Below the pieces are notes generated by a model that saw only the letters and a list, made by a program, of their open reading frames with translations, did not search any database and had not been told where the DNA came from. Of a stretch of 39,162 nucleotides of DNA, positions 27,307 through 38,989 are shown in pieces (position 1 is the stretch's first letter; the number at the start of each line of letters is the position of its first letter). This DNA is from Verrucomicrobiia bacterium (GTDB lineage Bacteria; Verrucomicrobiota; Verrucomicrobiia; Limisphaerales; JADLHS01). The DNA is taken from contig WYBW01000056.1 of assembly GCA_011525685.1 (NCBI GenBank), positions 1 through 39,162 of the forward strand, read 5' to 3'. The translations under genes were made by a program, and so were the position numbers.

Positions 27307-27315
27307 TTTCACAGT

Positions 27316-27455
27316 GCTGCCGTGGCCGAACACATCAGGCATCCGTCTTCTAAGCGGACTTCATGCAGGTGGGACTGCGGTTCGCGACAGCGAACATCGT
27401 TGCATGGGGCATCTAACCAGCAGGACTCGGGAAGTCCATCCTGCCGGCAGCGCCA
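27316..27455 (+). tRNA. tRNA-Arg (anticodon TCT) interrupted in the T-loop
   Basis: Acceptor GCTGCCG/CGGCAGC is perfect; G73; encoded CCA. D-stem GCC/GGC. Anticodon arm TCCGT-CTTCTAA-GCGGA. The T-stem GCAGG (27365-27369) pairs with CCTGC (27440-27444), but 70 nt lie between instead of 7. Removing 27375-27437 leaves the 7-nt loop TGGGAAT, of the type seen in neighbouring tRNAs. The primary gene is 140 nt. Confidence 0.8.
27375..27437 (+). other. 63-nt intervening sequence in tRNA-Arg(TCT)
   Basis: Begins CTGC and ends AAGTCC. It aligns without gaps to 38908-38970 in tRNA-Ser(GCT), 49 of 63 identical. The first CTGC can pair with GCAG at intron positions 46-49. The last 15 nt form the hairpin GGACT-CGGGA-AGTCC, so both ends are brought together. 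An internal hairpin TTCGC-GACA-GCGAA lies near its 5' side. Confidence 0.72.
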
Positions 27456-27456
27456 T

Positions 27457-27531
27457 TGCCAGGTGGTGTCAAAGTAGCACGGCGGCCTGTTAAGCCGTTC
27501 GGTGTTGGTGCGAGTCCAACCCTGGCAGCCA
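27457..27531 (+). tRNA. tRNA-Asn (anticodon GTT), non-canonical
   Basis: Acceptor TGCCAGG/CCTGGCA with U1:A72 and G73 as in Asn tRNAs, encoded CCA. Anticodon arm GCGGC-CTGTTAA-GCCGT. T-arm GTTGG-TGCGAGT-CCAAC. D-stem GTG/CAC. It starts 1 nt after the Arg gene. Confidence 0.87.
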
Positions 27532-27535
27532 TTTT

Positions 27536-27627
27536 CAGGGTGTAATGTCAGCAGCAGACGGCCTGGTTTGGAACCAGGAGGGTGCTTGCGCACGGCCACC
27601 AAGGTGCAACTCCTGCCACCCTGACCA
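27536..27627 (+). tRNA. tRNA with anticodon TGG (Pro-type) but with a long variable arm
   Basis: Acceptor CAGGGTG/CACCCTG, A73, encoded CCA. Anticodon arm CCTGG-TTTGGAA-CCAGG gives UGG (Pro). Position 37 is A, not the G usual for Pro. The region after the anticodon stem holds a hairpin GTGC-TTGC-GCAC, a class II variable arm otherwise found in Leu, Ser and Tyr. T-loop TGCAACT with a partly mismatched stem. A Ser(GGA) reading would need a shifted anticodon stem and is less likely. Confidence 0.6.
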
Positions 27628-27632
27628 TTCTT

Positions 27633-27721
27633 GGAAGGCAGGCAGATATAAGCTGGCTGCACCTGTCTCGAAAACAGGATCGGCATCGCCGAGGTCGGAG
27701 CATTACCGACGCCTTCCGCCA
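27633..27721 (+). tRNA. tRNA-Ser (anticodon CGA), non-canonical
   Basis: Acceptor GGAAGGC/GCCTTCC, G73, encoded CCA. D-stem GCAG/CTGC. Anticodon arm CCTGT-CTCGAAA-ACAGG. Class II variable arm CGGC-ATC-GCCG as expected for Ser. T-arm GTCGG-AGCATTA-CCGAC, with A54 and G55. Confidence 0.87.
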
Positions 27722-27722
27722 T

Positions 27723-27796
27723 CGTCCTGTAGCTCAATAGCAGAGCACCCGGCTGATAACCGGGAGACCGCGGAGCATTACCACGCGAAGGGACCA
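27723..27796 (+). tRNA. tRNA-Ile (anticodon GAT), non-canonical, acceptor poorly paired
   Basis: D-stem GCTC/GAGC with 7-nt loop AATAGCA. Anticodon arm CCCGG-CTGATAA-CCGGG. T-loop AGCATTA, like the preceding Ser gene, with one T-stem mismatch. CCA follows A73. The acceptor halves CGTCCTG and CGAAGGG form only 4 of 7 pairs, two of them G:U. This may be a chimera or a degenerate gene. Confidence 0.65.
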
Positions 27797-27832
27797 CTCT
27801 TCGCTCGCCGAGTATCGGCCCGGCGAGCTCAC
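27797..27832 (+). repeat. Hairpin between tRNA-Ile and tRNA-Phe
   Basis: Starts CTCTTCGCTC, resembling the start of the tRNA-tail elements. The arms are GCTCGCCG/CGGCGAGC. It may be a shortened relative. Confidence 0.5.
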
Positions 27833-27907
27833 CCCCGAGTAGCTGAGGCAGATTAGCGCCTCCCTGAAGAGGAGGAGACGTTGGCGCGATACCAACTTCG
27901 GGGACCA
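27833..27907 (+). tRNA. tRNA-Phe (anticodon GAA), non-canonical
   Basis: Acceptor CCCCGAG/TTCGGGG with one G:U, A73, encoded CCA. D-stem GCT/AGC. Anticodon arm CCTCC-CTGAAGA-GGAGG. T-arm GTTGG-CGCGATA-CCAAC. Confidence 0.83.
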
Positions 27908-27913
27908 ATTCAT

Positions 27914-27987
27914 CGTAGCGGCGATTCGGTAGAACGCCGCATAGCCTCAATCGAAGCGAAACGGCGTTCTGCCGAGACGCCGCTACG
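27914..27987. repeat. Inverted repeat directly upstream of rtcB
   Basis: CGTAGCGGCG plus GGTAGAACGCCG on the left mirror CGGCGTTCTGCC plus CGCCGCTACG on the right. It ends 12 nt before the rtcB ATG, so no Shine-Dalgarno lies in free sequence and folding could affect translation or separate rtcB from the tRNA transcript. Confidence 0.75.
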
Positions 27988-27999
27988 CTCTTAACAACC

Positions 28000-29175
28000 A
28001 TGCAAACTCTCACTGAAGTCACCGTGCGCCTTTTCGCCTCGGCCCGAAGCTGGATCGAGGGCGAAGCGGTGCGCCAACTCTATGCCACCGCGAAATTTGA
28101 TGGAGTGCGACTCGCGGTGGGCTTCCCGGATTTGCATCCGGGCAAAGGCACGCCGGTCGGCGCCGCCTTCGTGACCGAAGGCGTGATCTATCCGCACCTC
28201 ATCGGCGGCGACATCGGCTGCGGCATGGCGCTCTTCAAGACGGACCTCGTTCGTCGCGACGCCAAGCTCGACCGTTGGGCAGATTTGCGCTTCAACCTCG
28301 AACACCCGTGGGACGAGTTCGTGGACGGCTTCCTGGCCGAACACGATCTGGAGTCCACGGAGTTCGACTCGGCGCTCGGCACCATCGGTGGCGGAAATCA
28401 CTTCGCGGAGTTGCAGGCCGTTGAGGAGATCCTCGACGCCAGCGCATTCCGCAAGGTCGGCCTGGGCAGGCAGCAACTGGTGGTGCTCGTCCACAGCGGC
28501 TCACGCGGCCTGGGTGAGTCCATCCTGCGGGCTCACGTGGAACAGCACTTCGGTGACGGCGTGGAAGCCGAATCGTTCGCGGCGGAGGCATACCTCCGCG
28601 ACCACGATTATGCTCTGCGCTGGGCCAAGGCAAACCGGGAACTCATCGCCCGCCGCTTCGTGGCGACGCTCGGTGCGGAAGCCGAATGCCTCTGGGACGG
28701 TTGTCATAACAGCATCATTCGTAGGACAGGCGTCGCGCCTGTCTCCAATCAATGCGCGGTCGAAGAATGGAGTCAGGCGCGACGCCTGCCCTACGTTCAC
28801 CGCAAAGGTGCTGTCGCGGCAGACACCGACTTCCTTGTCATCCCCGGTTCACGCGGCTCGTTGAGTTATCTCGTGAAACCGACGGGTGATGGCGAAAGTC
28901 ATGCGTGGTCACTGGCTCACGGTGCGGGTCGGAAGTGGGCGCGTAGTGAGGCGCGCCTCCGCATGCGCGAACGGTTCCACCGTCACCAGTTGGTGCAGAC
29001 CCCGCTGGGCGGTCGGGTGGTCTGCGAAGAGCGCGACCTGCTCTACGAGGAAGCGCCGGGCGCCTACAAGAAGATCGAGACGGTGGTTCAGGACCTCGTT
29101 GATGCCGGACTGGTGTCCGTCATCGCGACGTTGCGACCACTCCTCACTTACAAGACGCGCAAGGCGCGTGGTTAA
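28000..29175 (+). CDS. rtcB: RtcB family RNA ligase (RtcB2-like)
   Basis: 391 residues. RtcB joins RNA 2',3'-cyclic-phosphate or 3'-phosphate ends to 5'-OH ends using GTP and Mn2+. Seen motifs: PDLHPGKGTPVGAAF, the metal-binding GGDIGCGMA, GGGNHFAEL, HSGSRGLG, CHN (His236), RKGAVAAD, PGSRGSLSY and HGAGR with the histidine that becomes guanylylated. The start (WIEGEAVRQLYATAKFDGVRLAVGFPDLHPG) resembles the shorter RtcB2 branch, often paired with PrfH. No prfH is in this window. Residues about 240-266, between CHN and HRKG, are encoded by an R1 palindrome inserted in frame. The gene sits inside the tRNA array on the same strand, so its substrates may be these RNAs (inference). Confidence 0.92.
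   Translation: MQTLTEVTVRLFASARSWIEGEAVRQLYATAKFDGVRLAVGFPDLHPGKGTPVGAAFVTEGVIYPHLIGGDIGCGMALFKTDLVRRDAKLDRWADLRFNLEHPWDEFVDGFLAEHDLESTEFDSALGTIGGGNHFAELQAVEEILDASAFRKVGLGRQQLVVLVHSGSRGLGESILRAHVEQHFGDGVEAESFAAEAYLRDHDYALRWAKANRELIARRFVATLGAEAECLWDGCHNSIIRRTGVAPVSNQCAVEEWSQARRLPYVHRKGAVAADTDFLVIPGSRGSLSYLVKPTGDGESHAWSLAHGAGRKWARSEARLRMRERFHRHQLVQTPLGGRVVCEERDLLYEEAPGAYKKIETVVQDLVDAGLVSVIATLRPLLTYKTRKARG
28720..28795. repeat. R1 palindrome inserted in frame within rtcB
   Basis: CGTAGGACAGGCGTCGCGCC ... GGCGCGACGCCTGCCCTACG, the same arms as the intergenic copies at 5218-5350 and 29179-29254. It adds roughly 25 residues to a loop of RtcB. Confidence 0.85.
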
Positions 29176-29178
29176 CAA

Positions 29179-29254
29179 CGTAGGACAGGCGTCGTGCCTG
29201 CCTCCATTTCAGTTCGTCTCAAATGATGGAGACAGGCGCGACGCCTGTCCTACG
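29179..29254. repeat. R1 palindrome immediately downstream of rtcB
   Basis: Same length and arms as the copy inside rtcB. It starts 3 nt after the stop codon and may act as a 3' end hairpin. Confidence 0.85.
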
Positions 29255-29262
29255 TCCGTTTC

Positions 29263-29340
29263 GTCCGTGAATGCAAAGCAGCTCGCGCAACCAGCCCTTC
29301 AAGCTGGTCCTAGCCGGTGCGAGTCCGGCCACGGATGCCA
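29263..29340 (+). tRNA. tRNA-Glu (anticodon TTC), non-canonical
   Basis: Acceptor GTCCGTG/CACGGAT, G73 as in Glu, encoded CCA. Anticodon arm CCAGC-CCTTCAA-GCTGG with C33. T-arm GCCGG-TGCGAGT-CCGGC. Confidence 0.85.
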
Positions 29341-29344
29341 TTTT

Positions 29345-29422
29345 GCTCTCAAGGTGTAATTAGTTCTGCACGCCGCTCTGCGAAGGCGGAGGTTCGTGGT
29401 GCAAATCCACGTGAGAGCGCCA
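29345..29422 (+). tRNA. tRNA-Arg (anticodon GCG), non-canonical
   Basis: Acceptor GCTCTCA/TGAGAGC, G73, encoded CCA. D-stem GTG/CAC. Anticodon arm CCGCT-CTGCGAA-GGCGG. T-arm CGTGG-TGCAAAT-CCACG. GCG is unusual in bacteria, where CGN codons are normally read by an ACG (inosine) tRNA. Confidence 0.83.
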
Positions 29423-29430
29423 CTTTCCAA

Positions 29431-29503
29431 GCCCCCGTGCCTCAGCAGCCACAGGGCGGGTTTCGTAAACCCGTATTCGTCGGTGCGAGTCCGACCAGGG
29501 GCT
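29431..29503 (+). tRNA. tRNA-Thr (anticodon CGT), non-canonical
   Basis: Acceptor GCCCCCG/CAGGGGC (one mismatch) with G1:C72 and C2:G71 as in Thr. U73; the next bases are TCA rather than CCA. Anticodon arm CGGGT-TTCGTAA-ACCCG. T-arm GTCGG-TGCGAGT-CCGAC. D-stem CCT/AGG. Confidence 0.82.
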
Positions 29504-29507
29504 TCAG

Positions 29508-29606
29508 CCTTCGCCAATTGCGTCAACAGTTGGCGAAGGCTGCCCACCATAGCTTCAGCGAAGGCGGGCTTGTTCGCTGGTCTGCCTGGCTACGGCTGGC
29601 AGGCCA
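29508..29606 (+). repeat. tRNA-tail hairpin element, copy 3
   Basis: Starts 4 nt after the discriminator of tRNA-Thr. The inner arms AGCCTTCGCCAA/TTGGCGAAGGCT are perfect. The outer helix is CAGCC/GGCTG, a compensated change against CCATCC/GGATGG in other copies. Ends GGCAGGCCA. Confidence 0.8.
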
Positions 29607-29614
29607 CTTCGAAT

Positions 29615-29690
29615 GGTGATCATGATGTAATCAGCAGCATCACGCCCCGTGAAGGCGTTTGTGCCGGTGCGAATCCGGTTGGTCACCCCA
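29615..29690 (+). tRNA. tRNA-His (anticodon GTG), non-canonical
   Basis: G-1 at 29615 faces C73, the His identity pair. Acceptor GTGATCA/TGGTCAC; encoded CCA. Anticodon arm ACGCC-CCGTGAA-GGCGT with C33. T-arm GCCGG-TGCGAAT-CCGGT. D-stem ATG/CAT. Confidence 0.88.
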
Positions 29691-29691
29691 A

Positions 29692-29786
29692 CCTTCGCCC
29701 ACTTTATTCAAGTGGGTGAAGGTTGCCCTCCGTAGCTTCAGCGAAGGAGGGCTGTCATTTGCCAATCGGCTACGGTTGGCAGGCCA
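29692..29786 (+). repeat. tRNA-tail hairpin element, copy 4
   Basis: Follows the CCA of tRNA-His by 1 nt. Outer helix CCAACC/GGTTGG, where the CCA belongs to the tRNA. Inner arms AACCTTCGCCCACTT/AAGTGGGTGAAGGTT. Ends GGCAGGCCA. It lies 5 nt from the next Y RNA. Confidence 0.82.
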
Positions 29787-29791
29787 ATCTC

Positions 29792-29918
29792 GATGGGCCG
29801 AAGTTGATCGGTTATCCTCCACCATAAGGAGGGCGTAGCGTCTTGGGCGAACGTTCAAGCGATCCGGGTTCGATTCCCGGCATGGAGTGCCTCCGTTCGA
29901 TCACGCCACTTGCCCATC
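29792..29918 (+). ncRNA. Y RNA with tRNA-like domain (YrlA-type), copy A
   Basis: The terminal helix pairs GATGGGC with GCCCATC. The Ro60-binding type strand GGGCCGAAGTTG then GGTTATC is present, with ACTTGCCC on the 3' strand. These match the bulged helix of known Y RNAs (CCGAAG...GTTATC and ACTTG). Inside are a CCTCC-ACCATAA-GGAGG hairpin and a canonical T-arm CCGGG-TTCGATT-CCCGG. An acceptor-like hairpin (ATGGAG-TGC-CTCCGT) follows. The D-like arm is not clear. Confidence 0.82.
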
Positions 29919-29994
29919 TGATTCTGTGGAACGTCACTGAGACGTTTTCGCAAACAAACCGCGTCCGCGGTGCAGCCGCTACTGCATCACGGAT

Positions 29995-30068
29995 TTTCCC
30001 GTAGTTCAACCGCGAACGAACACCCGGAGAACATCCGGGAAATGTGGGTTCGATTCCCATCGGGCGCG
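29995..30068 (+). tRNA. tRNA-like RNA, anticodon position AAC, acceptor tip unpaired
   Basis: Canonical T-arm GTGGG-TTCGATT-CCCAT, D-stem GTTC/GAAC and anticodon-type arm CCCGG-AGAACAT-CCGGG. The acceptor pairs only at positions 4-7 (CCCG/CGGG); positions 1-3 are TTT against CGC. Position 33 is G, and no CCA is encoded. AAC would read Val, but the loop is abnormal. It may be a pseudo-tRNA or another regulatory tRNA mimic between two Y RNAs. Confidence 0.5.
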
Positions 30069-30076
30069 CTTATTTG

Positions 30077-30186
30077 GACGGGCCGGTGAGTCTGGGTTGT
30101 CTGGATGAAGCGGGAAACCGCGAGCGGGTTCAAATCCTGCCCCAGCCGCCAACATGGCTGGATTCCCAACACGCTTTTTGTCCGTC
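30077..30186 (+). ncRNA. Y RNA with tRNA-like domain, copy C
   Basis: Terminal helix GACGGGC/GTCCGTC, with GGGCCGGTGAG and GGGTTGTC on the 5' strand and TTTTTGTCC on the 3' strand. It is a divergent version of the Y motif. The tRNA-like part has a canonical T-arm GCGGG-TTCAAAT-CCTGC followed by an acceptor hairpin CCAGCC/GGCTGG whose loop contains GCCA. A GCGG-GAAA-CCGC tetraloop hairpin precedes it. The T-arm-to-acceptor order is that of YrlA tRNA mimics. Confidence 0.68.
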
Positions 30187-30194
30187 TTACTTTT

Positions 30195-30324
30195 CGACGG
30201 GTCGCAGGATTGGGTTATCGCTTAAGACGACGTGGTCGCCGGTTCGAGTCCGGCCTCCGGAACCAAGTGCCGGAGTAGCTCAGTGGTAGAGCACGTAAAC
30301 TCCCAGTTCGTTTCTTATCCGTCG
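30195..30324 (+). ncRNA. Y RNA with tRNA-like domain, copy D
   Basis: Terminal helix CGACGGGT/ATCCGTCG, then CGCAGG and GGGTTATC on the 5' strand and TTTCTT on the 3' strand. The tRNA-like domain has T-arm GCCGG-TTCGAGT-CCGGC, then an acceptor hairpin CTCCGG/CCGGAG enclosing ACCA. Next is TA and a fully canonical D-arm GCTC-AGTGGTA-GAGC with GG. So acceptor and D-arm follow the T-arm, a circularly permuted order. Confidence 0.78.
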
Positions 30325-30540
30325 GTCCTTTCAGCGGGCCGTAGATTATGGCCTGGCATTACTTACTGATACGAGCTCGCATCCGTCCATCAACGGTGCT
30401 CCAGAGGGATTGGATCAAGGGACTGTCAGGATCGTCGCTTCTACCAGGAAGGCAGAGTGTGCTGCTGCAACTCCTAGACGAGTGTAACCTTGGGACGGGT
30501 TGCTACGTAGAACATCTTTGAATAGAAGAACTCTAACCTG
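30325..30540. other. Spacer without recognised feature
   Basis: Upstream region of the next gene. A GGCC...GGCC palindrome near 30334-30351 is visible, nothing else I can name. Confidence 0.3.
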
Positions 30541-31539
30541 ATGAAACTGAAAACGATTCTTGGGATCTCTCTCCTGCTGGCGGTGGCCACCGTGGCTTTG
30601 GTATGGCAGAAAGTACGAACGCAAGAACTCCGGAGCGACATCGAATCCTTGCGACGGGAGGCAGCACAACTCCCGGAACTCCAGACGGAACTGGAACGGT
30701 TGCGCAAGATTGAGGTGAAGGACTCCGAGTTGGTGCGGCTAAAAAGCGAAGGAACCAAGCGGGACCGGGAGTTGATGCAGTTGCGCGGCCGATTGGGGGC
30801 GTTATTGCGCAACCAGGCAGAGGTGGCTTCGATGGCGACCAACACGGCGATGCGTGGCCCCAGCAACAGCACCTCCACAGTGGGGTCGGAAGGTACGGCT
30901 ATTCCGGGGCAATCGGAAAACTCACCCGATTGGCTGCGAGCCACAGTGGACCTGAATGTTGATGCCCAGATCGCGCAAGCCCGGGAGCGACTCCAACTCA
31001 ACCCTGAGCAGGAACAGTCAATACGCACCGCAGTAAGCCAAGCCCTGAATGCAGGCCAGGAAGACCTCCGCAAAGTGCTTTCGGGCCAGGCGCAACCGGA
31101 GGACGTTCCCACCACTTTGGAATGGGCCAAGGGATTGGAGCAACAAATCCTTGCGGTGCTGGCGCCCGAGCAGCAGGCGGCCTATTACCGCTACAAGGAG
31201 CAGGACATCCAAGCTAATGCCCGCCTCATGGCCAATGATGAATTGCTGAAGATACAGAACAGTCTCGGGTTGTCACCAGAGCAACAGGACCAAGCCTTCG
31301 GGGCGTTGTATAACCACGCGGTGAGCCAGCTCAATCCGGACGAAGCCTCGCTCGCCGAACGGCCGCGCAATCCCATAGCCGCCTTGGCCTGGGAGAACAG
31401 CCGTAAACTCCAGGCCCTTGAGACAGCCCTGAGCTCGCAACAGTTGGAGTCGTATCGCCGCATTCAGGACTTGCAAGTCCAGTATTGGAGATCAGTGGCG
31501 GCGGGCAACGCTGCCCCGGCGACGGGCAACAAGCCCTGA
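30541..31539 (+). CDS. Membrane-anchored coiled-coil protein of unknown function
   Basis: 332 residues. One N-terminal membrane segment (TILGISLLLAVATVALVW) is followed by a long coiled coil (residues about 25-100, RTQELRSDIESLRREAAQLPELQTELERLR and onwards). A low-complexity Ser/Thr stretch comes next, then a helical domain (LNPEQEQSIRTAVSQALNAGQEDLRKVLSG ... ILAVLAPEQQAAYYRYKEQ) that resembles Spy/CpxP-like periplasmic helices in its LTPEQ pattern. I associate such proteins in Verrucomicrobiota with ECF sigma genes, but no sigma gene is adjacent here. Its place between two Y RNAs may be chance. Confidence 0.75.
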   Translation: MKLKTILGISLLLAVATVALVWQKVRTQELRSDIESLRREAAQLPELQTELERLRKIEVKDSELVRLKSEGTKRDRELMQLRGRLGALLRNQAEVASMATNTAMRGPSNSTSTVGSEGTAIPGQSENSPDWLRATVDLNVDAQIAQARERLQLNPEQEQSIRTAVSQALNAGQEDLRKVLSGQAQPEDVPTTLEWAKGLEQQILAVLAPEQQAAYYRYKEQDIQANARLMANDELLKIQNSLGLSPEQQDQAFGALYNHAVSQLNPDEASLAERPRNPIAALAWENSRKLQALETALSSQQLESYRRIQDLQVQYWRSVAAGNAAPATGNKP

Positions 31540-31571
31540 CACTTCCACCACTGATTCACCGCTCGCACTTT

Positions 31572-31695
31572 GATGGGCCGAAGTTGTGGGTTATCGCGTG
31601 TTGTTGGTTCGAATCCAATCCCCGGAGGAATTCGGGGTAGCTCAACGGTAGAGCAGCCTCCGCAAGGAGTAATTCCACGGCGTCCCTTGCCCATC
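31572..31695 (+). ncRNA. Y RNA with tRNA-like domain, copy E
   Basis: Terminal helix GATGGGC/GCCCATC, Y motif strand GGGCCGAAGTTG and GGGTTATC, 3' strand CCTTGCCC. The tRNA-like part has T-arm TTGG-TTCGAAT-CCAA, an acceptor hairpin CCCCGGA-GGAA-TTCGGGG (seven pairs allowing G:U), then TA and a canonical D-arm GCTC-AACGGTA-GAGC with GG. A CTCC-GCAA-GGAG hairpin takes the place of an anticodon arm. This is the clearest of the set. Confidence 0.88.
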
Positions 31696-31713
31696 AGTAA
31701 TTCTGCGCGAAGC

Positions 31714-32525: not shown

Positions 32526-32624
32526 GGCCGCATTATACCCGCGCCAGCCACGACTGTCAGCAAGCCTTTCCATCGCAGCGCGTGCCGCGTTGGTTCAACC
32601 GCAACCCTCAAACCCGGAGGCCGT

Positions 32625-32807: not shown

Positions 32808-32875
32808 GAACTGTTGCCTCCGCTCCGGACGATACGACGGCGCCAGGCGGAATCACTTTTTTTCGCGAATGAATC

Positions 32876-32942: not shown

Positions 32943-32943
32943 T

Positions 32944-33009
32944 CTGCGGGCCGAAGAACATGGGTTATCACTGCAAATGACCACCCCACGTTCACCAACT
33001 TGTCCGCAG
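32944..33009 (+). ncRNA. Minimal Y RNA upstream of Ro60, without tRNA-like domain, copy F
   Basis: Terminal helix CTGCGGGC/GTCCGCAG, then CCGAAG and GGGTTATC on the 5' strand and CAACTT on the 3' strand, the Y RNA consensus. The inner helix pairs GAACATGGG with CCCACGTTC (one mismatch). It is 66 nt, 59 nt before the Ro60 start codon on the same strand. This is the classic arrangement of a Y RNA gene next to its Ro protein gene. Confidence 0.85.
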
Positions 33010-33068
33010 TTCCACACAACACATCCGTGCCGGGAGTTGGCGGCGCACACAATAGAATGGAGGCCAAT

Positions 33069-34715
33069 ATGGCTATCAATTATGCAAAGCTCTTCAACCG
33101 CCGTGTCACGCCGCAGTCGCAGCCGATTCCAGGTTCGACCCAGGTTCGCAACTCGGCCGGCGGCTACTCGTGGGAAGTGGATGACTGGACGCGGTTCGAC
33201 CGCTTCCTGATCCTGGGTGCCGAGGGCGGAACGTATTACATCGGCGAACGCGATCTCGTGAAGCAGAACCACGATGCGCTTGTCCGCTGCATCAAGGCCG
33301 ATGGCATTCGTGCAGTGAACCGCATCGTGGAAATTAGCGATGCGGGTCGCGCGCCGAAGAACGACCCGGCCATCTTCACCCTCGCACTTGTTGTGACGCA
33401 CGGTGACGCATCGGCGAAGGCTCAAGCGTTCGCGAACCTGAACAAGGTCTGCCGCATCGGCACGCATCTGTTCCACTTCGCCGAATACGTGAACGCCATG
33501 CGCGGCTGGGGCCGTGGTCTCCGCAATGCCGTGGGTCACTGGTATGTGGACCGCGGTGCCGAAGACCTCGCGCACCAGGCCGTGAAGTATCAGCAGCGCG
33601 ACGGCTGGTCGCACGCGGACCTGCTCCGCCTTGCCCACCCAAAGGCACCAAGCCGTGAACACGAGGCGGTGTTCCGCTGGATGCTCACCGGGGCGGACTC
33701 GCTCGGTGAACGCGAGGTGAAGCGCAAGGTTCGTGGCGAAGACCGCATCGCGAAGTATGCGGCGGTTGGTGAACTGCCGAAGCTCATCGAAGCTTTCGAG
33801 CAAGTGAAGCGCGCCACGAACGTCATCCAGGTCGGGAAGCTGATTGACGAGTTCGACCTGCCGCGTGAAGCCATCCCAACGCAGTGGCTCAACGAGGTCG
33901 CAGTGTGGGAAGCGTTGCTCCAGCGCATGCCGATGACGGCGATGATCCGCAACCTCGGCAAGATGACGAGCATCGGCCTCGTTCAGCCGTTCAGTGACGC
34001 AGCCAAGCTCATTGTCCGCAAGCTGGGCGACGAAACGGCGCTGAAGCGTGCGCGCATCCACCCGTTGGCGGTGTTGATCGCCGAAAAGGTGTATGCGCAG
34101 GGCAAGGGCGAGAAGGGTTCGCTCACCTGGAAGCCGGTGCCGAAGATCGTTGATGCACTGGACGCGGCGTTCTATGCCACGTTCCAGAACGTCGAGCCGT
34201 GTGGCAAGCCGGTGCTCCTGGCACTGGATGTCAGCGGTTCGATGGGTGGCGGTTCGGTAGCAGGCTCGTGCCTGACTCCGCGTGAAGCCAGCGCGGCGAT
34301 GGCATTGGTGACGGCGGCAACCGAGGAGGAATACCACATTATGGGATTCTCGAATCGGTTCATCCCACTGAACATCTCGCCGCGCATGCGTCTGGACGAC
34401 GTGGTGAAGCGCATCAGCAACCTTCCATTCGAGGCGACGGACTGCGCTCTGCCGATGATCTGGGCTCGCGAAAACGCGGTGAACGTTTCGGCGCTCATCA
34501 CCTACACGGACAGCGAAACGTGGGCGGGCAACATCCATCCGGCGCAGGCGCTGCGTCAGTATCGCAGCGAGTTCGTCGGCGACGCGAAGGCAGTTGTTGT
34601 GGGCATGACCTCCAACGGCTTCACCCTCGCCGACCCGAACGACCGGGGCATGCTGGACGTTGTCGGTTTCGACACGACTGCCCCGGCAGTGATCGCGGAC
34701 TTTGTCCGTGACTAG
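33069..34715 (+). CDS. rsr: Ro60 / TROVE-domain RNA-binding protein
   Basis: 548 residues from the ATG at 33069, preceded by a GGAGG Shine-Dalgarno. The N-terminal two thirds are a TROVE ring of helical repeats (FDRFLILGAEGGTYYIGERDLVKQNHDALVRCIKADGIRAVNRIVEIS is the typical opening). The C-terminus is a vWA domain with an intact MIDAS, DVSGSMGG at residues 387-394. Ro60/Rsr binds misfolded RNA ends in its central hole and Y RNAs on its outer surface, and works with exonucleases in RNA decay and rRNA maturation. The adjoining Y RNA genes and the nearby rtcB fit this role. Confidence 0.95.
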   Translation: MAINYAKLFNRRVTPQSQPIPGSTQVRNSAGGYSWEVDDWTRFDRFLILGAEGGTYYIGERDLVKQNHDALVRCIKADGIRAVNRIVEISDAGRAPKNDPAIFTLALVVTHGDASAKAQAFANLNKVCRIGTHLFHFAEYVNAMRGWGRGLRNAVGHWYVDRGAEDLAHQAVKYQQRDGWSHADLLRLAHPKAPSREHEAVFRWMLTGADSLGEREVKRKVRGEDRIAKYAAVGELPKLIEAFEQVKRATNVIQVGKLIDEFDLPREAIPTQWLNEVAVWEALLQRMPMTAMIRNLGKMTSIGLVQPFSDAAKLIVRKLGDETALKRARIHPLAVLIAEKVYAQGKGEKGSLTWKPVPKIVDALDAAFYATFQNVEPCGKPVLLALDVSGSMGGGSVAGSCLTPREASAAMALVTAATEEEYHIMGFSNRFIPLNISPRMRLDDVVKRISNLPFEATDCALPMIWARENAVNVSALITYTDSETWAGNIHPAQALRQYRSEFVGDAKAVVVGMTSNGFTLADPNDRGMLDVVGFDTTAPAVIADFVRD

Positions 34716-34727
34716 CGGACGGTTCAA

Positions 34728-34786
34728 GGACGCCAAGAGGCAAACCACGCGGGCGGAGGTGAAAGCTTCCGCCCGCACCTTGCAAC
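34728..34786 (+). repeat. Direct repeat flanking the RelE/ParE module, left copy
   Basis: GGACGCCAAGAGGC then GAAAGCTTCCGCC. It matches GGATGCCAAGAGGC and GAAAGCTTCCGCC at 35553-35606. Confidence 0.65.
34749..34776 (+). terminator. Hairpin after the Ro60 gene
   Basis: GCGGGCGGA / TCCGCCCGC with loop, 33 nt after the stop. No clear T-run. The surrounding 55 nt are duplicated at about 35553-35606. Confidence 0.55.
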
Positions 34787-34794
34787 TGATTTTC

Positions 34795-35055
34795 CTACTT
34801 ACGATAAATTTCACGCCGATGACCGACACTCAGCAGGTGAAGGAGGCCTTTGGCGCGGTCGAAATCATAAATGACGCGGTAATCGCCGACTCGGATGCGG
34901 TAGGCATCCACTCCTTTCATTCGATGATGCGCGTGCTTGTCCAGCGCCATTCCCAACCGGTCAATGCTGGATTCGATGCTGGCCTGGATGGAAACTGGGA
35001 GTTTGAAAAAATCCGCGTCGAAGTCCCGCGAGTAGATTTGGAGCGCGGCGCTCAA
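34795..35055 (-). CDS. RelE/ParE family toxin
   Basis: 86 residues. Typical ParE/RelE fold sequence: QIYSRDFDADFFKLPVSIQASIESSIDRLGMALDKHAHHRMKG...AYRIRVGDYRVIYDFDRAKGLLHLLSVGHRREIYRK. The motif YRIRVGDYRVIYD is the family hallmark. RelE-type toxins cleave mRNA on the ribosome while ParE-type poison gyrase, and sequence does not separate them safely. It overlaps its antitoxin gene by 4 nt. Confidence 0.88.
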   Translation of the reverse strand: MSAALQIYSRDFDADFFKLPVSIQASIESSIDRLGMALDKHAHHRMKGVDAYRIRVGDYRVIYDFDRAKGLLHLLSVGHRREIYRK

Positions 35056-35252
35056 TGGCCGGCTTCAGACTTGCGCGTGCGCGAGTACACACCGTCGGCG
35101 ATTTCCTGTTTGGCCCGCAGGATTTTGCCTTTGAACTCATCGCTGACTTCCAACTGGTCTTCGATGAAATCGTCCAGCCACTCGCGAACTGACTGCAAAT
35201 CCTCCAACGGTAATTGGGTGAGGGCTGATTCGATTTCTTTGACCGTGCTCAT
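35052..35252 (-). CDS. Antitoxin of the RelE/ParE module (addiction module component family)
   Basis: 66 residues from MSTVKEIESALTQLPLEDLQSVREWLDDFIEDQLEVSDEFKGKI and onwards. The pattern EIESALTQLPLEDLQSVREWLDD is typical of small antitoxins paired with ParE/RelE toxins. It lies upstream of and overlaps the toxin gene. Confidence 0.8.
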   Translation of the reverse strand: MSTVKEIESALTQLPLEDLQSVREWLDDFIEDQLEVSDEFKGKILRAKQEIADGVYSRTRKSEAGH

Positions 35253-35324
35253 GCCGCATAGAATGGCCGAATTCAGATCGCAATTCAAGTCTCGATGCGG
35301 AACGGTGTGTGTCGGAGGCGCATC

Positions 35325-35525
35325 TCAGTTTATTACAGGTTGGAATTCCCGGCGTAGCGCGGGTTTCCCAACCTGCGGTATCGCCGACTTCCAGTCGGCT
35401 GGCCAAGGCACGGGGTGGCAGGCCGGGAGTTCGCAGCGTTTGCGGATTGGAAATCCGCGATCCGGCAGACTGGAAGTCTGCGCTACAGCATCGGCCCGAC
35501 GCCCCCTGCAAGAAAATGAGATGCG
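35325..35525. repeat. Composite palindromic repeat, family R2 (copy 2, opposite orientation to 17340-17550)
   Basis: Contains the same nested palindromes as copy 1 in reverse order, including GCGGATTGGAAATCCGC and GCAGACTGGAAGTCTGC. High identity over about 200 nt, 18 kb apart. Confidence 0.8.
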
Positions 35526-35552
35526 CCCGTGTGTCGGTGTGTGTTCGCCTGC

Positions 35553-35606
35553 GGATGCCAAGAGGCCAAAGACGAGGGCGAAGATGAAAGCTTCCGCCTG
35601 CGCTTA
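35553..35606 (+). repeat. Direct repeat flanking the RelE/ParE module, right copy
   Basis: See the left copy at 34728-34786. Together they bracket the toxin-antitoxin pair and the R2 repeat, as though about 770 bp had been inserted with duplication of the Ro60 3' flank. Confidence 0.6.
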
Positions 35607-35610
35607 AAAG

Positions 35611-36681
35611 TTGCGAAGTAACGGCAATTGCAGACCATCCAACATTGTGACGGGCATCATCATATTTTTGGTCGCAGCGTTGAGCGTCTGGAAGACGGCG
35701 GAGTATATTTCCGGGTTCATCGAGGAACAATGGCTTCTCGACCCTCAGAAACGTGCTCTTCAAGAGAAATTCGAATCGTGGTGGTTTTCTGTGGCCGAAT
35801 CCAAACCACGCTATTTTGCAGTCGCATTCGCTCGTAGTATGGCGGAAGGACTTACGGGCTTTTTTGGAAAGCGCCTACTTTCAAAGCGGTCATTCGTTCG
35901 CTCAGTGACAATTGGCACTGGGTTGCTAATGGCATCGCTCGCGTTTTCCAGCGTCTTCGGAACGGCCGTCAATCCTTGGAAGGAATTTCAGCAAACGGTT
36001 GACATGATGAAGAGCGCATCCGACCGAATCCAACCCCAGCAAGCAGCTACCGATGGTGAGACGAAGGAGGAGGCGGAAGCTGTACGCCGCCTTAAAGTTA
36101 TTGCAGAGCGGTACGGCGGCTTGCACTGGAAGATCGCTTACTGCATGACGTTTTTTGCTACACTACTGACTTCAAATGCTATTTCGTTCTTTCTCTCAAT
36201 TGCATTCAGTCGACTTGTCTTGCAAGAGATCGTTGCATCAGGACGCATATTCGCAGCGTGTTCCCTTTTAGCGCTGAACCTCTTTTTAGTCGCCTCGACT
36301 TCCACACTTTTGTTGCTGATCAACACGATAATCGCGTATCCGGTGCTCTGGCTTGTCGTTCCATTAGCCTATCTCTTATCCAGAGCGTCAGTTTACTGTA
36401 TGCTCGCGGTGTTCTTTGGTGGTGGAATTGCTGCATGGGCGTTTGGAAATCCCTTTCTTCAAATGGTTTCCTTCATCGCCTTTCTACCCTGTCTTGGCGC
36501 AATCCTCATTTGTACGATTTCGCTGGTGGCTCAATTGAATCGAAAACGATTCCACAGGCTTTGTTGTGCATTCCTTTTTCGATGCACTGGAAAGAAACCT
36601 TTGAGCTTTATTGTCGGCATTCTGGGCGGCATCGGCGTAGTGATTGCGCTGGTCTGCCGATTACTACAGGGGATGTCGTAG
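35611..36681 (+). CDS. Multi-pass membrane protein of unknown function
   Basis: 356 residues if the TTG at 35611 is used; a GTG at 35647 is also possible. Membrane segments near the N-terminus (IVTGIIIFLVAALSVW), in the middle (SVTIGTGLLMASLAF, IAYCMTFFATLLTSNAISFFLSIAF, LFLVASTSTLLLLINTIIAYPVLWLVVPLAYLL) and at the C-terminus (LSFIVGILGGIGVVIALV). Base composition is visibly more A+T-rich than the neighbours, which suggests recent transfer. No family recognised. Confidence 0.7.
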   Translation: MRSNGNCRPSNIVTGIIIFLVAALSVWKTAEYISGFIEEQWLLDPQKRALQEKFESWWFSVAESKPRYFAVAFARSMAEGLTGFFGKRLLSKRSFVRSVTIGTGLLMASLAFSSVFGTAVNPWKEFQQTVDMMKSASDRIQPQQAATDGETKEEAEAVRRLKVIAERYGGLHWKIAYCMTFFATLLTSNAISFFLSIAFSRLVLQEIVASGRIFAACSLLALNLFLVASTSTLLLLINTIIAYPVLWLVVPLAYLLSRASVYCMLAVFFGGGIAAWAFGNPFLQMVSFIAFLPCLGAILICTISLVAQLNRKRFHRLCCAFLFRCTGKKPLSFIVGILGGIGVVIALVCRLLQGMS

Positions 36682-36688
36682 GGAGAGC

Positions 36689-36759
36689 ATTCCGTTTGGC
36701 CGCGCAGGCGGCGGCCGGCAAAACCGCAGAGCCTGGTGCGATTCCAGCCCGGGATTCCA
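36689..36759 (+). tRNA. tRNA-Cys (anticodon GCA), non-canonical, short
   Basis: Acceptor ATTCCGT/CCGGGAT with one mismatch, U73 as in Cys, encoded CCA. Anticodon arm GCGGC-CGGCAAA-ACCGC with G33 and one mismatch. T-arm CTGG-(TGCGATT)-CCAG. It starts 7 nt after the stop of the membrane protein gene. Confidence 0.68.
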
Positions 36760-36806
36760 ACCGAGTTGAGGGTTTTTGGTTGAGGGTTGAGGAAACCGCG
36801 GCCGCG

Positions 36807-37277
36807 TCACCCGATTGATACGACTTTTAAGCCCTCGGCCTTGGCCAGTTGCGCCTGACGGCTATCGGTGGTCAGGAATAATTCACTTTCGAGTGTGAGC
36901 GCGCTGGCCACGTGGAGGAGATCAATCGCTCTCGCGCCCAGACGTTCGGTGTGAGCCGTGGAAAGATTTGCAGCGCGCGTGATGACAACGTCCATGTCCA
37001 GCGTCACGTCGAGCAGGGCGCCGCGAGCAACGAGATGTTCGAGCCGCGCCAGTGCGGCGTCGCGTTCGCGCGCGACATGCTGGCGGTCGCCGGAGGAAAT
37101 CGAGCGGCGCTGATGAAAGGCGCGTTGCCGGATGGCATTCCGCACTTCCAGCGCGTGCAGGGGCAGATAAAACAACTTGGGCGAGCCAAGCCGACGGTAT
37201 TCGGCAACGACTTGAGGCGAGTCTGCTTCGCCGGTGACCAAACGGAGGATGAAGCTGCTGTCGGCGTAGGTTCTCAC
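36807..37277 (-). CDS. PIN-domain ribonuclease toxin (VapC-like)
   Basis: 156 residues. The acidic PIN residues are visible: YADSSFILRLV with D6, E44 in LEVRNAIRQRAF, D120 in GARAIDLLHVA and D138 in LTTDSRQAQLAKAEGLKVV. VapC-like PIN nucleases cut RNA, several of them initiator tRNA or other tRNA anticodon loops. The gene overlaps its antitoxin gene by 4 nt and sits between two tRNA-Cys genes, which makes a tRNA target worth testing. The target itself is inference. Confidence 0.85.
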   Translation of the reverse strand: MRTYADSSFILRLVTGEADSPQVVAEYRRLGSPKLFYLPLHALEVRNAIRQRAFHQRRSISSGDRQHVARERDAALARLEHLVARGALLDVTLDMDVVITRAANLSTAHTERLGARAIDLLHVASALTLESELFLTTDSRQAQLAKAEGLKVVSIG

Positions 37278-37519
37278 CGGCGGGATTCTTCAAGCAGTTT
37301 GGCCGCGCTGATTTTCGACGGTTTTTCGCGCAGCACTTCGTCCAGGACTTCGTCAATCGCCCGGCGGCGCTCGGCTTCATCGGTGTCCGTGCCTTTTGCC
37401 GGGTGGAGAATCCAGAGGGGTTCGCCGTTGTCGGTGACTTGCACGGGGTTGCCGGTGCGGGTCATGCGCTTCACTTTCAGCGGCTCGCGGACCAGCGTGC
37501 GCAGCGTGATCGTCTTCAT
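37274..37519 (-). CDS. Antitoxin of the PIN toxin (Phd/YefM-like)
   Basis: 81 residues: MKTITLRTLVREPLKVKRMTRTGNPVQVTDNGEPLWILHPAKG. The N-terminal DNA-binding pattern and NGEPLWIL resemble Phd/YefM antitoxins. The C-terminal helix (RRRAIDEVLDEVLREKPSKISAAKLLEESRR) should bind the toxin. First gene of the two-gene module. Confidence 0.8.
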   Translation of the reverse strand: MKTITLRTLVREPLKVKRMTRTGNPVQVTDNGEPLWILHPAKGTDTDEAERRRAIDEVLDEVLREKPSKISAAKLLEESRR

Positions 37520-37554
37520 GTGTCAGACACTAATGGCTGACAATAATTGTGTCA

Positions 37555-37629
37555 ATCCCGTTGGCCTAGCAGCCGAGGCAGTGGTCTGCAAAACCACGCA
37601 GGTGGGTGCGACTCCTGAACGGGACTCCA
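37555..37629 (+). tRNA. tRNA-Cys (anticodon GCA), non-canonical, second copy
   Basis: Acceptor ATCCCGT/ACGGGAC with an A1:C72 mismatch, U73, encoded CCA. D-stem GCCT/AGGC. Anticodon arm GTGGT-CTGCAAA-ACCAC. T-loop TGCGACT on a weak stem. Confidence 0.83.
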
Positions 37630-37635
37630 TTTGTC

Positions 37636-37807
37636 CGGGCATAGGTGTTGAGAGAAACACGCCGGTCTTTCATCCTTCACTCCCCCTGTAAGTTGGTGCG
37701 AAGGATGCCCTCCATAGCCTTGTGCGAAGGAGGGCTTTTCGTTGTTCTGCCCAAAGCTTCGGATGGCAGGCCAACCGGAGTAGAGGGCGCACTACCCTCA
37801 TGGCTGT
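37636..37807 (+). tRNA. tRNA-Glu-like (anticodon TTC) interrupted by a hairpin element
   Basis: Acceptor CGGGCAT/ATGGCTG (one mismatch, one G:U). D-stem GTGTT/AACAC. Anticodon stem CCGGT (37662-37666) pairs with ACCGG (37774-37778), loop CTTTCAT. The T-arm GAGGG-CGCACTA-CCCTC follows after a 4-nt variable region. The 100 nt between the loop and the 3' strand of the stem are a tRNA-tail element. Without it a normal-length tRNA remains. No CCA is encoded. Confidence 0.65.
37674..37773 (+). repeat. tRNA-tail hairpin element, copy 5, inside an anticodon arm
   Basis: Starts CCTTCACTCC and ends GGCAGGCCA like the other copies, with the CCTCCATAGCC...GCGAAGGAGG hairpin. It sits after anticodon-loop position 38, directly before the 3' stem strand. 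Confidence 0.8.
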
Positions 37808-37817
37808 CAATTTTGTC

Positions 37818-37928
37818 GGAGCGCGACTCTGTGAGTCGCAGCAGGCCCGATTGGTGGGGTGAGCGTCCTGGCGAGTCGGCTCGTCAGTAGCCTCGCCCCA
37901 CCTTCTGCGGGTCACCGACCCGCGCTCC
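37818..37928. repeat. Palindromic repeat, family R3 (copy 2) with nested palindrome
   Basis: Outer arms GGAGCGCGACTCTGTGAGTC and GGGTCACCGACCCGCGCTCC. Nested inside is GGTGGGGTGAGCGTCC...CTCGCCCCACC, probably a second repeat inserted in the first. Confidence 0.75.
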
Positions 37929-37930
37929 TG

Positions 37931-38012
37931 AATTTTCCGCGACGCGAAAACCGGTGCCGGTCATGACTTCACAGGCTTGACCGCGGCGGTTCAACTCCGC
38001 CTTCGCGTCGCG
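37931..38012 (+). ncRNA. tRNA-like RNA with 12-bp terminal helix
   Basis: CCGCGACGCGAA pairs perfectly with TTCGCGTCGCGG. Inside are a canonical T-arm GGCGG-TTCAACT-CCGCC, a short hairpin CCG-GTGC-CGG in the D position, and GGTCA...TGACC around a 14-nt loop that contains TTCA. No CCA. The acceptor helix is too long for an elongator tRNA, and the anticodon arm does not fit a tRNA-Sec. The 5' Y motif is missing, so it is not called a Y RNA. Confidence 0.5.
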
Positions 38013-38032
38013 GTCTTTGCAGACGGCCGCCA

Positions 38033-38107
38033 GGGTTGCAAACTTTGACAGTGAAGTCCCGGCTCTTAACCGGCGAGAACTCGGTGCGAATCCGAGGCGA
38101 CCCACCA
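38033..38107 (+). tRNA. tRNA-Lys (anticodon CTT), non-canonical
   Basis: Acceptor GGGTTGC/GCGACCC with one G:U, A73, encoded CCA. Anticodon arm CCGG-CTCTTAA-CCGG. T-arm CTCGG-TGCGAAT-CCGAG. D-arm weak. Confidence 0.84.
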
Positions 38108-38108
38108 T

Positions 38109-38218
38109 CCTTCGCTCTGAGCCAACGCCTAGTTGGGTCAGGGCGAAGGATGCCCTCCATAGGCTTGGCGAAGGAGGGCTTGTTTCTATATCGGCTCAGA
38201 GCTATGGATGGCGGGCCA
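38109..38218 (+). mobile_element. tRNA-tail hairpin element, copy 6, leading into a GIY-YIG gene
   Basis: Follows the CCA of tRNA-Lys by 1 nt. Outer helix CCATCC/GGATGG and GCTCTGAGCC/GGCTCAGAGC. An alternative inner hairpin ATCCTTCGC...GCGAAGGAT with CCAAC/GTTGG inside is also possible. Its last base (GGCGGGCCA) is the A of the nuclease start codon. The nuclease copy could be the autonomous form of the family. Confidence 0.75.
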
Positions 38219-38481
38219 TGTTTTACACGTACGTGATCGAGAGCTTGAGCTATCCCGAGCAGCGTTACATCGGTCACACCGCGGACCTCCGGCGGCGCAT
38301 CGCAGATCACAACGTCGGGAAGTGTCCGCACACATCCAAGTTCATGCCTTGGAAGATCAAGTTGTATGTCGCGTTCGAGACGATTGAACAAGCTCAACAT
38401 TTCGAGCGCTATCTGAAAAGTGGTTCCGGTCACGTTTTCGCTAAGCGCCATCTTTGGAAGCAGAGCGAAACTTCAAAGTAA
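38218..38481 (+). CDS. GIY-YIG endonuclease, single-domain (UPF0213/URI type)
   Basis: 87 residues. The GIY-YIG core is FYTYVIESL (first strand) and QRYIGHTADLRRRIADHNVGK, with the conserved Arg in LRRRIADHN. The catalytic Glu is in ETIEQAQHFERYLKSGSG, and the Lys-rich tail is typical. Stand-alone proteins of this type occur widely in bacteria and related domains act as homing nucleases. The start codon overlaps the end of a tRNA-tail element by one base, with no Shine-Dalgarno in free sequence. The longer upstream frame runs through tRNA-Lys and the element and is not considered coding. Confidence 0.9.
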   Translation: MFYTYVIESLSYPEQRYIGHTADLRRRIADHNVGKCPHTSKFMPWKIKLYVAFETIEQAQHFERYLKSGSGHVFAKRHLWKQSETSK

Positions 38482-38517
38482 CACTTCTTCCCGCAGTCCT
38501 TTTGCTCGGTGCTTTCC

Positions 38518-38594
38518 GCATCCGTGGTGAAATCTATTATCATCCTCCGCTTCGAACGGAGAGTTTGCAGGTGGGAGTCCTGCCGGATGCACCA
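38518..38594 (+). tRNA. tRNA-Arg (anticodon TCG), non-canonical
   Basis: Acceptor GCATCCG/CGGATGC, A73, encoded CCA. Anticodon arm CTCCG-CTTCGAA-CGGAG. T-arm GCAGG-TGGGAGT-CCTGC, with G55 and G56. Confidence 0.87.
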
Positions 38595-38602
38595 ATTTCA
38601 AT

Positions 38603-38679
38603 GCCGCGTTAGCCCAACTACCAGAGGCGCTCCGCTCAGAACGGAGAGGTCGGGGGTGGAAATCCCTCACGCGGCACCA
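38603..38679 (+). tRNA. tRNA-Leu (anticodon CAG) without long variable arm
   Basis: Acceptor GCCGCGT/ACGCGGC, A73, encoded CCA. D-stem GCC/GGC. Anticodon arm CTCCG-CTCAGAA-CGGAG. The variable region is only AGGTC. T-arm GGGGG-TGGAAAT-CCCTC. Bacterial tRNA-Leu normally has a class II variable arm. Confidence 0.82.
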
Positions 38680-38683
38680 TTTC

Positions 38684-38758
38684 GCCCACGTAGTCCAACG
38701 CAGAGACGGCGCACTTAAAACGCGCACAGTGCCGGTGCAATCCCGGTCGTGGGCACCA
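38684..38758 (+). tRNA. tRNA-Leu (anticodon TAA) without long variable arm
   Basis: Acceptor GCCCACG/CGTGGGC, A73, encoded CCA. D-stem GTC/GAC. Anticodon arm GCGCA-CTTAAAA-CGCGC, with A:C at the loop-closing position. Variable region ACAGT. T-arm GCCGG-TGCAATC-CCGGT. Confidence 0.78.
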
Positions 38759-38759
38759 T

Positions 38760-38834
38760 CCGCGTGTAGCCCAAGGCAGAGGCGTTCCGCTCAAACCGGA
38801 AAGGTTGCAAGTGCAAGTCCTGCCACGCGGACCA
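38760..38834 (+). tRNA. tRNA-Leu (anticodon CAA) without long variable arm
   Basis: Acceptor CCGCGTG/CACGCGG, A73, encoded CCA. D-stem GCC/GGC. Anticodon arm TTCCG-CTCAAAC-CGGAA. Variable region AGGTT. T-arm GCAAG-TGCAAGT-CCTGC with one mismatch. 1 nt after the previous gene. Confidence 0.82.
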
Positions 38835-38838
38835 ATTT

Positions 38839-38989
38839 GGAATGTCCACCGGTCAAGCGTGCCGGGCCTGTTTGCTAAACCGTGCGTGCCTTCGGGCAAG
38901 TGATGCACTGCAGTTCGCGATAGCGAACCAGACCGTTTGGGGCATCTCACTTGCAGGACTTGGGAAGTCCACTCCACGGCATTCCGCCA
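38839..38989 (+). tRNA. tRNA-Ser (anticodon GCT) interrupted in the T-loop
   Basis: Acceptor GGAATGT/GCATTCC, G73, encoded CCA. Anticodon loop TTGCTAA on a weak stem. Class II variable arm TGCC-TTCG-GGCA as expected for Ser. The T-stem keeps only GTG/CAC. Removing 38908-38970 leaves the T-loop TGCAACT, the same loop as in another tRNA of the array. Primary gene 151 nt. Confidence 0.7.
38908..38970 (+). other. 63-nt intervening sequence in tRNA-Ser(GCT)
   Basis: Same length and same ends as 27375-27437. In the helix formed by the two ends, GG/CC of the Arg copy is replaced by AG/CT here, a compensatory change. The 3' hairpin is GGACT-TGGGA-AGTCC. Confidence 0.72.

Follow-up and report, generated by a model that had tools for sequence, protein, structure and literature searches.

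We report that the two 63-nt inserts found in the T-loops of tRNA genes on contig WYBW01000056.1 of the Verrucomicrobiia bacterium assembly GCA_011525685.1 are, with good confidence, members of a repeat family, mostly 60-66 nt long, that has likely spread as a non-autonomous palindromic mobile mini-element, rather than a new kind of tRNA intron. The contig, 39,162 nt long and analysed in its entirety, is referred to here as the window; the genome comprises 6.73 Mb in 199 contigs. On our best reading the element would behave like the Rickettsia palindromic elements, would insert at [G/C]A^A with no duplication of the target, and would favour T-loops.

A first-pass annotation of the sequence had placed the inserts at 27375-27437, in a tRNA-Arg(TCT) gene, and at 38908-38970, in a tRNA-Ser(GCT) gene, and these boundaries are exact, since a genome of the same genus (G001) carries the same tRNAs without the insert. 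The two inserts align without gaps, again with 49 identities in 63 positions by our count. Removing them leaves the 7-nt T-loops TGGGAAT and TGCAACT as the annotation had described, the former being also the T-loop of the G001 tRNA-Arg. ARAGORN finds 11 tRNAs in the window and skips both interrupted genes, and with the insert in place neither gene is reported by ARAGORN or Rfam. Once the insert is removed, ARAGORN finds the Arg gene with its TCT anticodon; the Ser gene, assessed by our own pairing test rather than by ARAGORN, then has 7/7 acceptor pairs, 3/5 T-stem pairs and CCA.

The G001 tRNA-Arg(TCT) (L225:5405-5481) is identical to the joined exons of the window gene at 76/77 positions and its tRNA-Ser(GCT) (L225:15955-16042) at 84/88, both without gaps. 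In another genome, G008, the tRNA-Arg(TCT) is also uninterrupted and is flanked by the same neighbours, Pro and Asn. Comparison of the Arg site with G001 reveals neither a target duplication nor a deletion. Pairs of occupied and empty sites were found for Arg, Ser and Leu in G001, and for Arg(TCG), Thr and Val among other genomes. The inserts are thus polymorphic at orthologous sites, with exact junctions, in the manner of a mobile element.

Three further copies lie in a second tRNA array of the same genome (contig C76), in tRNA-Leu(GAG), in tRNA-Thr(GGT) and at a site whose tRNA is unclear; the first copy on this contig was found by a search with the Arg gene, and three were recognised on reading the contig. 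R1, a covariance model built from the five copies, detected a sixth at C76 7928-7988, bringing the genome to six copies at E below 1e-4, and found matches in at least 15 of 57 genomes. Because a model of five copies found both this sixth copy and matches in other genomes, we conclude that the insert family is not a product of chance. A second model, R2, built from 32 copies, found copies in at least 62 of the 320 genomes of the order; in a sample of the phylum it matched at least 2 of 288 genomes, these being our own and G397. The genome counts, which include our own genome, are lower bounds, with at most 93, 16 and 18 scored candidates per genome in the searches of 57, 320 and 288 genomes, respectively. 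A pattern scan of a species-genome collection gave 30 records, 27 of which have titles naming Verrucomicrobia or subdivision-3 taxa, two Akkermansia and one simply 'bacterium'. Length is well conserved, at 60-66 nt in 99 of 102 copies, which were drawn from genomes near the window and do not form a random sample.

The complete genome G397, a single contig of 3.8 Mb from another order of the same class, holds 40 weaker matches at E up to 1, of which 31 fall below 0.01. Many of the G397 matches (L321-L350) form part of a larger dispersed repeat. Four pairs are spaced about 76-79 nt apart, the matches show a strand bias, and L350 appears by eye to be a T-loop copy. Elsewhere, one copy is apparently nested in the last hairpin of another (L126 1400-1600). 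Pattern scans of viral sequences gave 105 stretches (103 listed loci), and the model, run on 40 of them, returned one partial match at E 0.074; blastn with copy 1 against plasmids and phages gave no match. Lone 3' halves, as might mark an autonomous version, were sought in the fetched loci and none was found, with L155 looking truncated by eye.

We compared the flanks of 102 distinct copies. Seventeen lie in sense orientation in T-loops or T-loop remnants, as counted by hand-chosen strings, the hosts L123, L214 and L220 resembling tRNA remnants; four lie antisense in tRNA-like T-loops; and the remaining 81 were not recognised as T-loop sites, where 'outside tRNAs' means not recognised as tRNA, with surroundings not annotated copy by copy. 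At 6 of the 102, ARAGORN by itself recognises a tRNA once the flanks are joined. When acceptor and T-stem were scored, sense sites reached 12 at 13/100 sites against 2.2% in the null and 14 at 8/100 against 0.1%, while on the opposite strand a score of at least 13 was found at 4/100 sites against 0.2%. In our own genome the 61 tRNA matches occupy an estimated ~4.5 kb of 6.73 Mb, yet T-loops hold 5 of the 6 copies. Confinement of the insert to tRNA T-loops, whose failure in homologues the first-pass annotation had named as grounds for rejecting its proposal, is therefore true of five of the six copies in our own genome and fails for the family, most of the 102 copies lying outside recognised T-loops.

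We had also considered that copies in T-loops might always be in sense orientation, and the opposite-strand test rejected this by finding the four antisense sites. One is the sixth copy of our own genome, where the opposite strand offers a tRNA-like gene with 7/7 acceptor pairs, 5/5 T-stem pairs and CCA. The other three (L122, L128 and L166) occupy the same site in tRNA-Tyr-like genes (GTA by eye) in the arrays of three genomes; as they share both site and element type, they probably represent one inherited insertion. The P2 hairpin described below differs in sequence in each of the three. The antisense T-loop copies lower the odds that the inserts are introns and raise those of a mobile element. 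At the 43 distinct sites outside sense T-loops an A precedes the junction in 37 and follows it in 34, with G or C at position -2 in 42, giving the target consensus [G/C]A^A.

Three helices define the element. P1, in which columns 1-5 form five base pairs with columns 44-49 and leave one bulge, pairs the 5' end of the element with a GYRG motif before P3; P2 is a short hairpin whose foot pair (columns 7-23) is mostly unformed; and P3, whose 4-bp stem is capped by a [C/T]GGGA loop, adjoins P1 in our own copies and stands 1-3 nt away from it in many others. The stretch from P2 to the 3' strand of P1 contains a conserved core, which reads TTGGGGCATC in the consensus of our own copies and GGGGCAACT in many other copies. 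The alignment of the first five copies (A1) was made with MAFFT; A3 and A6, having been fitted to the model, are biased in favour of its structure. Changes on both sides of a pair occur at four pairs among the first five copies, and at 13 of 15 pairs among 94 distinct rows of 97 copies. These rows contain 179 double-change cells against a shuffled mean of 49, none of 500 shuffles reaching as many, and the signal is lost when the pairing is shifted by 1-3 columns. Pairing of the CTGC end with a segment next to GCAG, with a compensatory change, had been proposed from the two window copies and corresponds to P1, and the hairpin proposed for the end of the insert is P3 (GACT-CGGGA-AGTC in copy 1); both covary, and P2 is an addition to these helices. 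The further proposal that the two ends of the insert are held together agrees with the model, in which P1 and P3 would juxtapose them.

Given such a structure, we asked whether the insert might be a retained T-arm extension that gives the tRNAs a new function. A junction formed by the covarying helices on the T-stem is conceivable; against this, the same G001 tRNAs lack the insert, several host tRNAs are degenerate, and the element also occurs outside tRNAs and antisense in T-loops. We consider this explanation very improbable.

Copies also persist in open protein genes, in both orientations. Genome G140 has two neighbouring, complete genes for RlaP (RNA repair pathway, PF10127, nearly the whole profile), each with one copy, 63 nt antisense in one and 66 nt sense in the other, and both are in frame and free of stops. 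The relatives aligned with the two genes were selections of 14 and 13 out of 119 listed for each. The antisense insert is absent from all 14, while the sense insert is absent from 8 of the 13, replaced by a different insert in 4, and present with substitutions in one (P0210, 77% identical in alignment A5). Both alignments (A4 and A5) show various in-frame inserts, some repeat-like (e.g. SSGLRPPSPQSGEG), at the same or nearby loops, and these RlaP loops would seem to be recurrent insertion points for other small repeats. An FtsX-type reading frame holds one in-frame 63-nt copy, nested in another repeat, and the HsdM gene of G098 (L235 935-2311), truncated at its end, holds three, of 72, 69 and 63 nt. 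In that same HsdM frame there are further small inserts, one of which splits the NPPF motif. In-frame, stop-free insertion into open genes is thus found six times (RlaP twice, FtsX-type once, HsdM three times), as with the coding palindromes of Rickettsia, and such copies are likely read through as ~21-24 extra residues.

Our search for spanning frames favours in-frame cases, and lengths divisible by 3 are found in 58/102 copies, with 44% of all copy-orientation-frame combinations being in frame and stop-free; the contrast is provided by the out-of-frame copies. These lie in pieces of hsdR, interrupted by further stops, and in hsdM-like genes with further breaks, hsdR being identified by family models in L151 (upstream piece), L144 (both pieces) and L173 (downstream piece) and by a weak Pfam match in L164, and the hsdM-like genes of L199 and L163 by eye. 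We had entertained hsdR and hsdM as spliced hosts and rejected the idea. No out-of-frame copy was seen in an intact gene, in what is a small set; splicing would permit such copies, and this counts against it. The same hsdR codons (after GD, before SI[YN]D) are hit in several of L151, L144, L173 and L164, and the same hsdM-like site (after GD, before VEQ) in L199 and L163, in both cases partly by eye, which suggests that restriction genes may be a hot spot for the element.

There are two forms in which the intron proposed by the first-pass annotation might still be upheld. The first is a mobile mini-intron, cut from tRNA transcripts by self-cleavage or by a putative nuclease, whose exons RtcB would join, with all other copies as by-products. 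Several results are of the kind it predicts: the fold would juxtapose the ends, the best-scoring sense sites restore a 7-nt T-loop, T-loop copies are mostly sense (17 against 4), this array, like those of L225 and L218, encodes RtcB and the Ro60 protein, and three of the four interrupted tRNAs either diverge from G001 no faster than their neighbours or are not comparable there. An intron should nevertheless be confined to genes, and to an orientation, from which it can be removed, and we find 17 sense copies, 4 antisense copies, 81 others and protein-gene copies in both orientations. Stop-free copies in frame in open genes, one of them antisense, the restriction of out-of-frame copies, among those examined, to genes with further breaks, and the presence elsewhere in the genome of intact tRNAs for Arg(TCT), Ser(GCT), Thr(GGT) and Leu(GAG) leave the T-loop intron unsupported. 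Differences from the G001 genes fall in the T-arm beside the insert (both of those in Leu, two of four in Ser), and the Arg copy (27300-27460) matches no Rfam covariance model up to E 10, those of group I and II introns included. We therefore regard a mini-intron as improbable. The second form would make the element the smallest mobile intron known, a folded RNA of 63 nt that is excised from T-loops with the aid of the array's RtcB, inserted in reverse into RNA loops and copied to DNA, with its antisense copies as dead landings; it appears to us slightly less probable again.

How a mobile mini-element of this kind would move can be sketched. It probably travels as a folded single strand, and a putative enzyme acting in trans would cut at [G/C]A^A and join the folded strand. 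We favour this route because the junctions are exact, no duplication is seen, and the ends lie side by side in the model. T-loops may be favoured at least partly for offering [G/C]A^A, and insertion into the arrays is probably tolerated because the gene lost is a spare one, intact tRNAs of that anticodon being present elsewhere. The element does not have the form of a classical miniature inverted-repeat transposable element moved by a DDE transposase, as the Arg site has no duplication and the 5' end pairs internally and not with the 3' end.

A special case of the mobile mini-element is one resembling repetitive extragenic palindromic (REP) sequences or their doublets (REPINs), or derived from IS200/IS605, and moved by a Y1 (HUH) transposase of the REP-associated tyrosine transposase (RAYT) type. 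The absence of target duplication, the short hairpins and the GYRG tetranucleotide at the foot of P3 all fit, and Y1 genes occur in our own genome (8) and in 37 of 38 element-positive genomes, a figure drawn from element-positive genomes alone and hence no correlation. On the other hand, GYRG is here paired in P1 while the GTAG tag of REPs is described as unpaired in the excerpted text of PMC3733652, the length is 60-66 nt rather than 20-40, and a survey of 38 Y1 loci, 8 of our own and 30 out of over 150 listed for relatives, found no strong copy near any of them, the best match being at E 0.015. We think this origin unlikely, if less so than either form of intron.

Several results weigh against our conclusion that the inserts are mobile mini-elements. 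The same Y1 survey means that no mobilising enzyme was found among those loci, and G130, with 12 copies, gave no Y1 match. Taken singly, the inserts fold no better than shuffled versions of themselves (z -1.5 and -0.9); P2 and P3 appear in the minimum-energy folds and P1 does not, resting instead on covariation. An argument for a single strand from mismatched pairs is weak, with G.T at 22 against A.C at 10 in 13 pairs chosen post hoc and 49 against 45 over all 15. No general preference for hairpin loops was seen, 223 of 500 shuffles doing equally well, and a finer hairpin test was significant only when sense tRNA sites were included; because hairpins are not significantly preferred at the sites outside sense T-loops, the excess in T-loops is explained at most in part. 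Finally, the joined exons are 98.7 (Arg), 95.5 (Ser) and 97.3% (Leu) identical to G001, and eight uninterrupted array tRNAs, aligned over at least 65 nt, are 90.8-100% identical, so that the interrupted genes are not more diverged than their neighbours. In comparison with G268, the interrupted Thr (83%) and Ser (84%) fall below most array tRNAs.

Table 1. Coordinates of the element copies, their host genes and associated features in the window; R1 and the alignment A1 are those described in the text.
Feature	Position	Strand	Basis or remark
tRNA-Arg(TCT), 5' part	27316..27374	+	ARAGORN on joined flanks; 76/77 identity to G001 tRNA
63-nt element copy 1, T-loop TGGGA^AT	27375..27437	+	Copy alignment, R1 match, G001 comparison
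P1 5' strand (CTGCG), copy 1	27375..27379	+	Five-copy alignment
P2 hairpin (GTTCGC-GACA-GCGAAC), copy 1	27380..27395	+	Five-copy alignment
Conserved core TGGGGCATC, copy 1	27405..27413	+	A1 columns 31-39; T31, GGGG and TC invariant in 5 copies
P1 3' strand (CAGCAG, bulged A), copy 1	27418..27423	+	Double changes at 3/5 pairs
P3 hairpin (GACT-CGGGA-AGTC), adjoins P1, copy 1	27424..27436	+	Five-copy and 94-row covariation
tRNA-Arg(TCT), 3' part with CCA	27438..27455	+	ARAGORN on joined flanks; G001 comparison
RtcB RNA ligase inside tRNA array	28000..29175	+	PF01139, E 4.6e-70; context, role on inserts not implied
Ro60/TROVE protein inside tRNA array	33000..34715	+	Context
tRNA-Arg(TCG) without insert (empty site); homologue in G002 (L118) is interrupted	38518..38594	+	ARAGORN; cross-genome comparison
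tRNA-Ser(GCT), 5' part	38839..38907	+	Pairing test; G001 comparison
63-nt element copy 2, T-loop TGCA^ACT	38908..38970	+	Copy alignment, R1 match, G001 comparison
tRNA-Ser(GCT), 3' part with CCA	38971..38989	+	Pairing test; G001 comparison

The surroundings of the two window copies (26419-39040) form a tRNA array in which genes for RtcB and a Ro60/TROVE protein, and a weak match to an AbiEii-type nucleotidyltransferase, stand among the tRNAs. The first-pass annotation had named the nearby RtcB, which its profile match bears out (Table 1), and RtcB and Ro60 recur together in the homologous arrays of G001 (L225) and G267 (L218). The array looks like an RNA-repair or stress-tRNA island. Work on an RtcB operon that responds to damaged tRNAs has reportedly drawn a link to Ro proteins. 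RtcB would likely have a role here even without any intron, because, in the excerpts consulted, an RtcB operon is described as regulated by damaged tRNAs (PMC7790460) and a stress-induced tRNA array of Anabaena as repressed together with rtcB (PMC10272220). By eye, T-loops of the array between 27231 and 38834 read, for example, TGGAAAT, TGCGAGT and TGCAAGT rather than TTCRANY, and genes with Leu anticodons lack the long variable arm. At 32942-33010 a nematode sRNA family of Rfam scores 38.3 bits, barely over its cut-off of 38, presumably by chance.

Small dispersed repeats of Nostoc are tiny (21-27 nt), show compensatory changes and nested insertions, and have been suggested to move through an RNA intermediate. 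Our element resembles them in its small size, compensatory changes and nesting, and differs in length and in belonging to another phylum. Group I, group II and archaeal tRNA introns share with it a location inside tRNA genes, from which it departs in not being confined to RNA genes, in standing in frame in proteins, in lying antisense in some T-loops and in the Arg copy's lack of an Rfam match. With REPs (GTAG- or CGTC-tagged) and REPINs it has in common that it is short, hairpin-forming and interspersed, with some copies intragenic, nested or clustered; the available text of PMC3733652 and PMC3116915 describes REPs of 20-40 bp with an unpaired tag and REPINs as REP doublets tied to RAYT genes, whereas the element has different P2 and P3 hairpins and a 5' end that is paired, and no Y1 gene neighbours it at the 38 loci. 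The GC clusters of yeast mitochondria, as portrayed in part of PMC4478555, are likewise short palindromes (e.g. 42 nt) that vary between strains, merge and have no known enzyme, and they are flanked by short duplications (AG or ACT), of which none was seen for the element.

The element also resembles the Rickettsia palindromic elements. Tiny palindromic mobile repeats that also occupy protein-coding sequence are already known from this genus: the part of PMC6649704 consulted, citing Ogata 2000 and 2002, describes small palindromic transposable repeats within protein-coding sequence that do not abolish the protein. By description, the two are alike in having repeats in frame in coding sequence, and ours is set apart by its mostly 60-66-nt length, three covarying helices and T-loop excess. 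A literature search, mostly at the level of abstracts, turned up no short insert in a bacterial tRNA T-loop, and the family, its three-helix fold and its T-loop excess were not recognised in the literature so searched.

Verrucomicrobia subdivision 3 thus gains an element family, probably mobile and with members of very small size, in which a conserved three-helix fold goes together with a defined target and over-representation in T-loops. The movement of such small elements, which carry no transposase, becomes testable, with the fold as a search model, the empty sites within the genus and the copy-rich G397 as means. For annotation, tRNA finders miss long insertions in the T-loop, and mobile DNA may account for small in-frame inserts seen in conserved proteins.

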